33,590 bases of DNA, from positions 1 through 33,590 of the forward strand of contig JAUWBH010000047.1 of assembly GCA_030605085.1 (NCBI GenBank). The letters are read 5' to 3'. The position numbers and the translations under genes were made by a program. Positions 4,043 through 33,590 of the stretch are shown here, one piece after another. The notes beneath the pieces are model-generated. The model made no database searches. It was not told the origin of the DNA and worked only from the letters and a program-made list of their open reading frames with translations. Position 1 is the first letter of the stretch. Each line of letters begins with the position of its first letter. The DNA comes from Promethearchaeota archaeon. Its GTDB lineage: Archaea; Asgardarchaeota; Lokiarchaeia; Sigynarchaeales; SOKP01.

Positions 4043-5091
4043 ATGTCAAGTATAAATCCCTTTAATGAGTTTTATCACGTTCCAAATTCACAAGAATTGT
4101 TGGATATTGCGTTTAAAAGAGCCATGAAAAGTTCTGCTAAAGTCTCAAAAAATGCGCCTATTATTATAAAGGCAAAAAAAAAAGAAACGAAACGTATTAA
4201 AGTAGCAATTAAAAATTTAATTGATAGAATCTTGAATATTATTAAAAGTGTGCCTATCATCGATGAGCTCCCGGATTTTTATAAAGAATTAGCGTCAATA
4301 ATCGTCGATACTGATAAATTGAAATTAACATTAGGTAAATTAAATGGAATTTTACCTGTGTTATCTAAAATAGATAAGGAATATACGAAAGGTTAAAGCG
4401 GATTGAAGCCCCTAACCAAGGTGACGAACTAAGGAGGTCTGCTTTTGGGAGGATTTCCTCGATAATATATAAGCAAAAAAAAAGTTTAGTATATTTAAAT
4501 AGTATAAGAGGGTCATTAAGAGAAATTCCTTCCCTTGATTACACTATGCCTTGCGTAGTCGTTGCGGGGTACCCTAATGTGGGCAAGAGCAGCATTGTAA
4601 GAGAAATATCAACAAACAAACGCATTAAAGTTGAAGAATACCCATTCACTACCCAAAAATTAAATTTAGGGCATCTAATCATTGAAAGAAGGTTTGATAC
4701 AATTAGAATACAGGTCTTTGATACTCCAGGCGTGCTTTCTAGACCACTATCTGAACGAAATAAAATCGAATTGCAAGCAATTTTGGCTTTAAGGTTAATT
4801 TCCGATTTAATCATATTTATATTTGATCCTACACCCGCTTCGGGTTATACTGTCGATTCCCAAATTGAGCTATATAAAGAAGTAAAAGAGAGTTTTACTA
4901 AAGAAGGAAAAATCGAAATTATTCTTGTATTTAACAAAATGGACTTAGCAAGCTCCACAGAAGTTGATTATCTTAAGGAAAAACTAAATTTGAAAGATGA
5001 AGATTTCTATTTAACGAATGCTTTAACTGGAGAAAATTTGGAAGAAATTATCTCTTATTTAGAAAATCGATATTCTATAAATAAAAGATAA
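4043..5091 (+). CDS. NOG1-family ribosome-assembly GTPase, split by a single-base frameshift
   Basis: The N-terminal helical domain (4043-4396, 117 residues) and the GTPase domain (Met codon at 4546, ending 5091) belong to one NOG1 protein of about 349 residues. The linker is intact in the GTPase frame: read from about 4391 it gives LKRIEAPNQGDELRRSAFGR and continues to SLDYTMPCVVVAGYPNVGKS. The frame is lost at GGTTAAAG (4390-4397), where one extra T (GGTTTAAAG) would rejoin both parts. GTPase motifs are G1 GYPNVGKS, G3 DTPG, then SERNKIELQAI and G4 NKMD. NOG1 acts in large ribosomal subunit assembly. No canonical -1 slippery heptamer fits the site, so it is either a real mutation or a sequencing error. 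A diverged 3' copy lies at 12078-12425. Confidence 0.85.
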
Positions 5092-11907: not shown

Positions 11908-12077
11908 TGGATAAGAAAAAAATTAATTCTCTATTAGAGGATAAAAATTTTATAATTGAGGACTTATAGAATACTTATCTAGGGACTTCTTTAAAAATAT
12001 TTCCTAAATATGAAGCAAAAAGGTTGGGAGTTTCTCAAAAATCCATTCAAAATCATTTAAGAGTGGTAATTCCTGAC
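11908..12077 (+). pseudogene. Remnant of a helix-turn-helix protein fused to the NOG1 fragment
   Basis: From an ATG at about 11908 the frame reads MDKKKINSLLEDKNFIIEDL, then a TAG, then continues in frame NTYLGTSLKIFPKYEAKRLG and VSQKSIQNHLR. EAKRLGVSQKSIQNHLR looks like the recognition part of a helix-turn-helix. It runs without a break into the degraded NOG1 sequence at about 12078. I read it as the start of an unrelated gene broken by the TAG and by the junction. No start codon with a ribosome binding site is visible downstream of the stop. Function and family unknown. Confidence 0.35.
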
Positions 12078-12425
12078 ATATTGGATCGGCTAATGTCAAA
12101 GAGAAATAAAATCGAATTACAAGCAATTTTGGCTTTAAGGCTAATTTCGGACCTTATCTTATTTATATTTGATCCTACTCCCGCGTGTGGATATTCAGTA
12201 GATTCCCAAATAGAGCTATATAATGAAGTAAAAGTGAATTTTACTAAAGACGGCAAAATCGAAATTATTATTGTACTTAACAAAAAGGATTTAGCTAGCT
12301 CTACTGAAATTGATTATCTTAAGGAAAAATTAAATTTAAAAGAAGGAAAATATTTCTTGACTAATGCTTTAAGCGGGGAAAATCTTGATAAGTTAACTTC
12401 TTATTTGGTAAAAAGATATGAATAA
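12078..12425 (+). pseudogene. C-terminal fragment of a second, diverged NOG1 copy
   Basis: From 12078 the translation (DILDRLMSKRNKIELQAI to the end) aligns with the last third of the NOG1 at 4043-5091 (GVLSRPLSERNKIELQAI onwards), including NKKD in place of NKMD. By eye about 80% of positions agree in both DNA and protein, so this is not a fresh tandem copy. G1, G2 and most of G3 are absent, so it cannot be a working GTPase. An open frame starting upstream (about 12024) carries non-NOG1 residues at its N-terminus. The downstream gene is unrelated and convergent. The fragment reads best as a displaced 3' end left by integration or gene conversion. Confidence 0.7.
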
Positions 12426-19989: not shown

Positions 19990-21015
19990 ATGGAAAAAGA
20001 AAGTTATCGATTAATCAAACAAGTAAAGATATTCGGATGATCTTGCAAACTTGGATTTACTAAACTTAACGAACTATTGAGAAAGGCTGGTTTTAGCGGA
20101 GAATTTGAAGATGCGGCTGTAATACCAATACCTAAAAGCGATATGGTTCTTGTAAAAAACATAGATATTTTCACTCCAATCGTGGACGAACCTAGGATTA
20201 TGGGGGAAATTGCTGCTTGTAATGTTACAAACGACATATTTGCTATGAATGTGCCTGAAATCTCGGGAATGTTGGTGTTCTTGGCTATCAAAACCGATAC
20301 GCCAATAGAAATTGCAGAAGATATCCTAAAAGGAATTAAGTATTTCATGGAGAAAAAAATTAACTCAAAAGTAGTTGGTGGACACACAATATACAGCGAA
20401 TGGCCTTTAATAGGTGGAGAAGCTTCAGGATTTGTTGAAGAAAGTAAATTAATTCGAAAATTTGGCGTTAAAGAAGGAGATAAATTAATATTAACAAAAC
20501 CAATAGGATTACAAGCAATCTCCGCTGCGTATAGGCTTTTAAAAGACATGCCTGAAATGTTAGAAGGATATTCTATCAATGAATTAGAAAATTCAATTGA
20601 TCTGGCAATAAAACTGATGACAACACCTAATCAAAATGTTGTCAAAATAATTCACTCGTATAAACATTTCTCATTTATTCACGCTATGTCTGATGTTACC
20701 GGTTTTGGTCTTACTGGAAATTTACAAGAAATGCTTCAAAACTCTGAATTGTCTGCTATTATAGAAACTATCCCATCAATAAAACTCTCAAAAGAATTAT
20801 CTAGGGAATTGGGGTATTCATTTGACGATTGTCGATGTGCTGAAACTGCTGGTGGCATGCTTATCGCTATTGATCCAAAAAAAACTGAAGAATTTTCGAA
20901 CGCTTTAACGAGTAATGGCGTAAATAACTGGATTATTGGGACAATTGATAAATATAAGCCTAATCTTGTAAGAATTTCAGAAAAAGTCGAATATCTTGAA
21001 ATAGCAAAAATTTAA
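19990..21015 (+). CDS. selD: Selenophosphate synthetase, itself a selenoprotein (UGA = Sec17)
   Basis: Makes selenophosphate from selenide and ATP, the selenium donor for selenocysteine. Full length is 341 residues from ATG 19990 if the TGA at 20038-20040 is read as Sec. The frame upstream (MEKESYRLIKQVKIFG) and downstream (SCKLGFTKLNELLRKAG) of the TGA is continuous and gives G-U-S-C-K, the position of the catalytic Cys/Sec and Lys in SelD. The rest fits the AIR-synthase-like fold: ATP-binding acidic motifs, VGGHTIYSEWPLIGG, DVTGFGLTGNL and AETAGGML. GAGGG upstream supports ATG 19990. An annotation starting at TTG 20077 would lose the active site. The 3' UTR should hold a SECIS element. Confidence 0.93.
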
Positions 21016-23052: not shown

Positions 23053-23871
23053 TTATTTTTTTATTTTTCCGTTTAGGCTAATAACAATTTGTTTTAACTC
23101 ATTTAGTGCTTTATCAGTTAAATGTTCACCATTCTCAACATTAAAGGCTGTAATAGAAATCTCCACTTCTATTGATAATCCAATCCTTGGATGGGTTTTT
23201 ATCCATAACTGAGGATTTTTTTCTTCAATTTTAGAAACGTATGGAGCGATTTGGCTCTCTCCTATTCCAGAGAATATAAAACCTTTTTCTATAAACTTCC
23301 CCTTTTTTTTTTTAAAAATTGGTAAAATAACAATACTGAAGATTTTCTTCATTTCTGCTGGCACACCTGGTAAGCAAAAGATAATAGTTTTACCCTCTTT
23401 CATTTTAACACCCGGGGCAGTTCCTCTTAAATTTGGTAGTGGTGTTGAGCCTTTAGGTAAATAGGCCATTTTCTCTCTTTCTTTAGTCATACCCTCGAGC
23501 TTAAGGATGCCTTGTTTGTGTGCCTGGTCGTATGCTTTTTTTATCGAATCATACGCGTGTTGGTTTAATTCTAATTCTCTATTTAAAGCTAAACTAACAC
23601 CTTCCAATGTCATGTCGTCGAAAGTTGGGCCATGGACTTAAAGAAGTTTGGATTCTTTAATTAATCCGCCCGATGTAATTATCACATCAGGTTCTCGACT
23701 TAAGACATCTCTCAATGTGTTTGATATTTCTTCTACATCATCTCCTATAGTTGTTATTCTTTTGACTATATGACCATATTTGGTTATTCTTTTTGCCATC
23801 CAATTAGAATTAGTATCTTGGGTTTTTCCAATAAGAATTTCATTTCCTACCATTAAAAGTTCGACATTCAT
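23053..23871 (-). CDS. cinA: CinA-type nucleotide/MoCF-domain protein, interrupted by a 30-nt mRNA intron
   Basis: The MoCF-like domain of competence/damage-inducible protein A. Family members act on pyridine nucleotides (ADP-ribose pyrophosphatase-like). Two exons, complement of 23053-23631 and 23662-23871, give 262 residues when joined. Exon 1 holds MNVELLMVGNEILIGKTQDT, DTNSNWMAKRI and ends ITSGGL. Exon 2 begins GPTFDDMTLEGVSLALN and continues PNLRGTAPGVKMKEGK and FCLPGVPAEMKKIF. Unspliced, the frame stops at a TAA within the intron (23638-23640). The joined length fits archaeal CinA-like proteins without the C-terminal deamidase. If the intron is not removed, only a 77-residue product and a separate C-terminal piece would result. 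Confidence 0.88.
23632..23661 (-). other. Putative BHB mRNA intron in cinA (30 nt)
   Basis: Minus strand. The exon helix GGGC (23668-23671) pairs with GCCC (23627-23630). The central 4-bp helix is GGAT (23664-23667) with GTCC (23634-23637), one wobble. The two 3-nt bulges are TAA (23661-23663) and ATG (23631-23633). The inner stem is 8 perfect pairs, TTAAAGAA/TTCTTTAA (23653-23660 with 23638-23645), with a 7-base loop. Cutting between the second and third base of each bulge, as the archaeal splicing endonuclease does, removes exactly 23632-23661 and yields GGA-TTA-GGC-CCA-ACT, coding GLGPT. Confidence 0.88.
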
Positions 23872-32195: not shown

Positions 32196-33590
32196 ATGCC
32201 TCTCAAAAGTAGTGAAAAGATTCAAACGAAAATCTTTCGGATATACCCGACCAAATCGCAAGAACGCCAACTTCACGAAGTTTTCACGATTTACAATAGA
32301 GCGAAAAGAATAGGATACAAGCTACTTTTCAACGGAAAGGAAAACCCCAACAATTGGAACGAAGAGAGAGAGAAATTGAGTAAGGAAGAAAAACAAGAAA
32401 TACGCAAAGAAGAAGATAAGAGAATTCGCAAAGCGTTAATGGAAAAGTGTCGCAATAATCCTTACGTAAACACTATTGTATCCGAAATTTTTCAAAAACT
32501 TGACCAGTAAAAAACTTGGCTCGGAAATAGTGAGCAATGGATGACCGAAAAAATAAAAACAATAAAAGAAAAGATTGAGAGCGTTAAGAAAGAAAACAAG
32601 AAAGATAAACGACTGAGAGGACTTTATTCTAGTCTTCACTCTACGCATAATAAGGCAATAACCTTAAAACTCAAACCTATCGTTTTTGGAACGAAACGAT
32701 TGTTTCGAGAAAGACTACTCCAAAAAATTAGCAGGGAAGAGTTCATAATTAGACGGGACGCTTCTTTCAGTTGTATAGGGAAAGTACAGGGAGTTAACTT
32801 GAACATAAAAGTATTGGACGACAAAACGATTAGAATTCATAACTTTCGCAAAGAAAGGAACAAAATATGGATAATCGTTCCTCTATACGTAAATAAATCC
32901 CAAGAGCGATTCTACAAAGAGATTCTTAACGCGAAAAAATACACCGCGACGATTAAAAGGAAGTTCTTTAAAGACGGGATACGATATTTTGCCCACATTT
33001 CTTACGAGATTCCCGAATCAGAAACAAAGTTCGGATTCAGAAACGGTGCTGTTGGGTTAGACTTTAATTACAACTTCGGTTCTTTAACAAACGTGAGTAA
33101 AAAAGGCAACTTGTTAAGCTACAAAGAGATCTCGTTCAGAAACCTACAAACGTATAGAATGAACAAGCGAGAGGACTACGTAAGTTTTTTAATGGATAAA
33201 ATAGTGAATTACTGTATTCACAAAAAGAAAGGATTAGTGATTGAAAACCTTTCTTTCAAACAAAACTTTAGTTACAATAAAAAGCGTAACAGAAAGTTAA
33301 GCAATTTCAGAACTACCGCGTTAGAGCTGTTAGAAAGGAAATGTGCGAGAAAAGGAGTAAGCGTTAGAAATGTACACCCTTCTTACACTTCTCTAATCGG
33401 TAAGTACAAATATTCACGCTCACACAACTTATCAACTCACATGTTAGCAAATTTTGTGATGGCTCGAAGATGTTTAGGGTTTAAGGAATCGCTTCCAGCC
33501 ATTTACAAGTGGTTGCTTTCACAAGTCGGGGATATTATAAAGCCCCGTTTGAAAAAAGGCACACCCTACTACGAATGGTCGCAAATCTAC
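32196..33590 (+). pseudogene. IS605/IS1341-type TnpB-like RuvC protein with an in-frame TAA, cut by window edge
   Basis: One frame of 465 codons runs to the window edge and holds a TAA at 32508-32510 (after FQKLDQ; the frame continues KTWLGNSEQW). The N-terminus (IQTKIFRIYPTKSQERQLHE) is TnpB-like. The RuvC motifs are GLDFNYNFGSLTN (D289) and LVIENLSF (E350). At the third position the sequence is LSTHMLANFVMARR (T414-H415) where TnpB has the DxxN/Asp motif, and no CxxC zinc-finger pairs are seen between E350 and H415. It therefore belongs to a divergent TnpB branch, or its nuclease is changed. No TnpA is seen in the window. Confidence 0.8.

Follow-up and report, generated by a model that had tools for sequence, protein, structure and literature searches.

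The cinA gene of the window (the whole 33,590-nt stretch of DNA that was analysed) is interrupted by a 30-nt insert, which, judged from its sequence and predicted folding, is very probably a pre-mRNA intron that would be excised by the splicing endonuclease EndA and sealed by RtcB, as with the crenarchaeal cbf5 intron. The gene runs on the minus strand from 23871 to 23053, and its frame is broken at window positions 23632-23661 by 30 nt harbouring an in-frame TAA, where the unspliced frame is translated as ...VIITSGGL/IKESKLL-stop-VH/GPTFDD... (slashes mark the ends of the insert). Once the insert (23661-23632) is taken out, a continuous cinA frame of 262 codons is obtained. An initial sequence-only reading, which had reported the 30 bases, their in-frame TAA and the broken cinA frame, was right to the base. 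The parts of the gene are as follows.

23662..23871, minus strand: cinA exon 1 (210 nt, 70 codons, M1-L70), ending in ...TCGGGCGGATTA
23632..23661, minus strand: 30-nt insert, predicted bulge-helix-bulge intron, ATTAAAGAATCCAAACTTCTTTAAGTCCAT
23638..23640, minus strand: in-frame TAA within the insert, which terminates the 77-aa read-through peptide P0121
23053..23631, minus strand: cinA exon 2, from G71 to the stop codon, starting with GGCCCAACT

In the proposed mechanism, the insert would be transcribed along with the gene and the cinA transcript would fold into a bulge-helix-bulge (BHB), in which the tRNA splicing endonuclease would cut each 3-nt bulge after its second base; sealing of the exons by RtcB ligase would then give a message for an uninterrupted 262-aa CinA. 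The predicted exon junction in the cinA mRNA is ...GGCGGATTA joined to GGCCCAACT. Since the unspliced message would yield just a 77-aa fragment, splicing would be needed for full-length CinA.

The exon ends and the insert together supply the elements of a strict BHB in the order GGGC, GGAT, TA/A, TTAAAGAA-TCCAAAC-TTCTTTAA, GTCC, AT/G and GCCC, where the slash stands for the predicted cut.

23668..23671, minus strand: outer helix, 5' strand GGGC (exon 1)
23664..23667, minus strand: central 4-bp helix, 5' strand GGAT (exon 1)
23661..23663, minus strand: 5' bulge TA/A, predicted cut between 23662 and 23661
23653..23660, minus strand: inner stem, 5' strand TTAAAGAA
23638..23645, minus strand: inner stem, 3' strand TTCTTTAA
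23634..23637, minus strand: central helix, 3' strand GTCC
23631..23633, minus strand: 3' bulge AT/G, predicted cut between 23632 and 23631
23627..23630, minus strand: outer helix, 3' strand GCCC (exon 2)

RNAfold, applied to stretches of 81 nt and 141 nt, returned exactly this structure, which agrees helix for helix with the fold drawn in the sequence-only reading (GGGC/GCCC, GGAT/GTCC, the TAA and ATG bulges and an 8-bp stem). Two 3-nt bulges lie on opposite strands with a 4-bp helix between them, and one of the four pairs of that GGAT/GTCC helix is a U-G wobble. When only the 30 insert bases were shuffled and the exon sequence was kept, 1 of 200,000 shuffles (5e-6) equalled the central plus inner helix, and a simpler score with sliding register gave p 0.0002, which is the floor of that test; in plain folding energy a 44-nt piece, which clips the outer helix, reached z = -1.75, with 10 of 200 shuffles equally good. 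Among the splice pairs tried (introns of 20-45 nt), just one restores SGG[LI]GPTFDD, and this is the canonical bulge cut; the rule invoked earlier, by which cleavage after the second base of each bulge gives back GGLGPTFDD, leads to the correct join and is unique among those pairs. Group I and group II introns were rejected as candidates, since the window gave no Rfam match at the gathering score; moreover, 30 nt is too short for either.

The spliced product belongs to the CinA type and contains the molybdopterin-binding domain PF00994, which bears out the assignment of the gene to cinA. Its top matches are Asgard proteins with 83-85% identity, from sources naming Promethearchaeota and Thorarchaeota, and it aligned end to end, over 262 aa, with 25 Asgard CinA proteins at 71-85% identity, in which the splice junction falls inside the invariant G68 G69 x G71 P T F D D. 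A conserved coding sequence is accordingly interrupted here and restored by exact removal of the insert. On NF002291, the best NCBIfam model, the spliced protein scored 259 bits, under the cut-off of 293, and the halves alone scored 78 and 147. The gene order around cinA agrees with the eight Lokiarchaeal loci compared, and the Asgard origin proposed for the DNA holds by protein similarity and gene order, which make an Asgard archaeon the likely source organism.

Several further features of the window were recorded. The frame of selD (AIR-synthase-type, selenophosphate synthetase-like) can be followed upstream, beyond the listed start, as far as an ATG at 19990, and crosses an in-frame TGA at 20038-20040 (FG-stop-SCK), which would fit selenocysteine. 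At 32196-33590 lies a transposase-like gene (named by eye; Pfam gave none), whose frame is interrupted by a TAA codon at 32508-32510 and in which a BHB was not seen. The NOG1-type GTPase encoded at 4546-5091 has a further, truncated copy at 12024-12425.

A broken frame in genome sequence, most of it from metagenome assemblies, might also be expected of a decaying pseudogene with a chance insertion, or of an assembly error. Against this stands the behaviour of the exons. Between the window and another insert-bearing genome (G029), exon 2, which lies behind the stop, gave pN 0.115 and pS 0.781, and between the window and three intact genes pN was 0.14-0.15, compared with 0.16-0.18 for two intact pairs, all with synonymous sites close to saturation. 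The values for exon 2 resemble those of the intact pairs, which would not be expected of a pseudogene, and both exons evolve as coding sequence under purifying constraint. In addition, the identical codon is affected in assemblies of several sources, and uS3 and rtcB are interrupted likewise, so that a pseudogene or an artefact is extremely improbable as an explanation.

The distribution of the insert was followed by searching a CinA alignment against one class of 83 genomes, 76 of which gave a match. Fifty-one of the 83 carry an uninterrupted cinA match over most of its length with E < 1e-100 (G073 included), and in 28 the match is absent, partial or distant. The remaining four are interrupted precisely at the L70-G71 boundary, by 30 nt in G001 and G029 and by 29 nt in G026 and G027, and all four inserts lie in the BHB register, with 3 of 4 central-helix pairs in G026 and G027 and two inner-stem mismatches in G001. 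Intron-less and intron-bearing forms are thus both present among other Asgard cinA genes, a comparison that the sequence-only reading had proposed. The search flagged a stop in cinA of G073 and G202, yet their alignments are without an insert. Covariation within cinA, with the five inserts aligned, was weak, and 14 of 500 shuffles were as good.

The same interruption recurs among proteins. Searching with the 77-aa read-through peptide, in a length window that admitted short proteins only, yielded 49 proteins, 40 of which end at most eight residues past GG[LI], with 7 running into GPT and 2 stopping earlier. The next residue after the site is Ile in 36 of the 40, which include the window's own protein, two from the G001 contig, of which one is a copy of exon 1 lacking exon 2, and one identical to that of G029; the rest of the 40 are known as protein sequence alone. 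A tree of exon 1, which was poor (63 residues; of 169 proteins, 26 including that of the window were left out), required 17 parsimony changes, from which no more than a patchy distribution is taken. Viral contigs searched with the CinA pattern gave 51 matches, of which none is a relative.

In G001, a second and diverged cinA exon 1, stopping at the same codon and without exon 2, is located 9 kb from the intron-bearing cinA (L118 14101-14337 and 4442-5260), where it adjoins the gene that in the window is the neighbour of cinA; the arrangement resembles the outcome of an insertion into cinA by DNA carrying an exon 1 and intron of its own. Such a copy beside the usual cinA neighbour, as after insertion, would suit an insert that is what remains of a mobile element, or one end of it, and that folds by chance and stays unspliced. 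This origin is nevertheless hardly credible: the ends of the cinA inserts show no direct repeat, the sequence of the window's insert is present there a single time, Pfam gave no recombinase domain for the seven ORFs examined in the 9 kb, and under strict filters the 83 genomes contained only 4 cinA inserts above 70 bits, with the next-best match at 28.

The predicted intron of cinA is not isolated, and its extent had been understated at first, since the same codon carries inserts in other lineages and inserts of like length occur in rtcB, uS3 and pyrG. In total, 24 inserts of 29-31 nt were found at seven sites in four genes, distributed over 15 of the 83 genomes plus the window (16 in all); as only these four genes were examined, the tally is no census. 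For rtcB, 75 of the 83 genomes gave a match, and inserts were located in three of them (L142 1219-1270; L162 1576-1627; L163 568-620). G029 and G063 share a 29-nt insert at GGVGY/DINCG, where TTGG AT/A, a 9-bp stem and CCAA A(C/A)/A restore GGVGYDINCG and all pairs form in both inserts (central 4 of 4, inner 9 of 9), and G081 has a 30-nt insert at a second site, D/AHQGYG, with 3 of 4 central pairs. Among the best 46 of 260 matches to the 106-aa read-through peptide, which are protein sequences alone, 16 stop within three residues past GGVGY without DIN.

For uS3, with matches in 80 of the 83 genomes, site B carries an insert of 30-31 nt in G047, G038, G057, G049 and G039 (L183-L187), and site A is interrupted in the same genomes except G047, where it is intact. 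The BHB cut at site B gives FGLEMPQIEV (FELEM in G047), and the Met that the bulge rule places there is also Met in 4 of 5 intact relatives and Leu in the fifth. In the inner stem of site B, 8 of 9 pairs have changed on both sides in a compensatory manner, with a covariation of 0.612 vs 0.248 +/- 0.055 that 0 of 500 shuffles reached; the central helix is 60% paired only. A uS3 search across 227 genomes of the phylum gave no in-match stop outside the class among the matches listed.

The inserts in pyrG (CTP synthase) first surfaced through a weak covariance match (E 0.023). With matches in 71 of the 83 genomes, pyrG has 30-31-nt inserts at site A (SGI/GKG, the P-loop) in G047, G035 and G034 (L209, L228, L229), where splicing restores SGIGKG, and at site B (DFGTY/..FLGI) in G026, G027, G028 and G033 (L230-L233); the match in G031 (L236) contains 1 TAG. 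Two of the weak covariance matches, L174 in uS3 and L209 in pyrG, are real interruptions, and the others that were read (L179-L182, L210, L213-L216 and L218-L222 aside) show no such interruption and sit in open frames or between genes. Because several splice pairs (2 to 9) are compatible with the protein at uS3 and pyrG, the cut position can be given with less certainty for these genes than for cinA.

Across the 24 inserts, the canonical register was best or tied among nine shifts in 23. With the register free and 5000 insert shuffles, p was below 0.05 in 15 of the 24, including 5/5 in cinA, and 0.05 or above in nine, namely 4/4 at pyrG site B, 3/4 at uS3 site A, and G047 at uS3 site B and pyrG site A (0.0516), by a score that makes no provision for asymmetric stems. 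At pyrG site B, length, position and frame make up the whole of the support, and the shuffle test gave no structure beyond chance. A blind scan of 0.92 Mb of strand for BHBs whose removal joins reading frames ranked the window cinA (38) and G029 cinA (37) above the next score (33); as it returned many chance matches and missed the inserts in cinA of G001, G026 and G027 and in rtcB of G029, it was set aside as a means of discovery.

Short hairpin inserts in conserved genes, whose removal restores the protein, are also what programmed translational bypassing would present, in which the hairpin would make the ribosome hop over the insert and land on a codon that matches the one at take-off. Identity of these two codons defines translational bypass elements, of which the mitochondrial byp elements are an example. 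A repeated end triplet does exist in 8 of the 24 inserts (4/4 at pyrG site B, 2/3 at site A and 2/4 at uS3 site A), and at pyrG site B ribosomes may hop. In 16 of the 24, however, no repeated triplet lies within 6 bases of the join, including 5/5 in cinA, 3/3 in rtcB and 5/5 at uS3 site B, and the arrangement in two bulges, like the Met of uS3 site B, obeys the endonuclease rule. As a general explanation bypassing is therefore very unlikely; the insert of the window cinA, which is without the repeated triplet, was rejected as a bypass element.

Splicing by endonuclease and ligase would presuppose both enzymes, and the sequence-only reading had suggested looking for them in the genome. In related genomes they are largely in place: two tRNA_int_endo genes each in 7/7 genomes searched, and RtcB in 6/7, with no RtcB match in G026, where the cinA insert is present. 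The organism of the window would presumably encode them too. Among the endonuclease loci, 11 of 12 were read (all but L132); six carry Tyr, His and Lys at positions that we take to be the catalytic places, and five, of a second type, are without that His. The catalytic-type subunit of G001 aligned over residues 18-198 of 198 with the solved chain 3p1z_B, and the two share a similar KPR loop, presumably the Crenarchaea-specific loop. The two subunit types suggest a heterotetrameric endonuclease, and such an enzyme is reported to cut relaxed motifs also (PMC6379350). ARAGORN predicted a 17-nt intron in the tRNA-Cys of G001 (L159 3320-3411).

Taken more broadly, it seems reasonably probable that Lokiarchaeia practise routine spliceosome-free mRNA splicing, with uniform BHB introns of about 30 nt in the most strongly conserved motifs of core genes (a ribosomal protein, CTP synthase and RtcB among them), with RtcB mending its own message, and with many genes that look broken in Asgard assemblies being intact and containing introns that went unrecognised. 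The seven sites at which coding regions of the four genes carry inserts belong to archaea for which a common ancestry with eukaryotes has been argued. If the inserts are spliced, tRNA-type splicing acts on Asgard messages, such genes are truncated or split by gene callers, and the gain and loss of mRNA introns become traceable outside eukaryotes. A ligase RtcB that seals its own message would possess a built-in feedback loop, and the rtcB intron makes such autoregulation directly testable.

A 2020 paper names cbf5 as the sole reported archaeal mRNA BHB intron besides its own 5'-UTR case (PMC7714728). A full-text literature search, read by titles and the starts of abstracts and leaving most subscription papers and bioRxiv outside its scope, gave, among the papers listed, none on such introns in Asgard protein genes. 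As far as searched, the present set of BHB-type inserts is new in gene, lineage and number.

Three known systems stand closest. The cbf5 intron of Desulfurococcales and Sulfolobales is likewise short (16-44 bp) and inside a conserved protein gene, has BHB-like borders cut between the second and third bulge base, occupies one site with loss in some lineages, and goes with a hetero-oligomeric endonuclease; unlike it, the window insert belongs to another gene and phylum and forms a strict BHB, whereas those in cbf5 are mostly unconventional, and the inserts described here have lengths of 29-31 nt and extend to several further genes (PMC2738675). The BHB intron in a 5'-UTR is an mRNA intron that the splicing endonuclease cleaves in vivo and in vitro, but it sits in the untranslated leader and breaks no reading frame (PMC7714728). 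Archaeal tRNA introns with the canonical BHB have the same 3-nt bulges flanking a 4-bp helix and would share the enzymes proposed here, and they differ in the host RNA, which is a tRNA there and is predicted to be an mRNA in cinA (PMC6379350).
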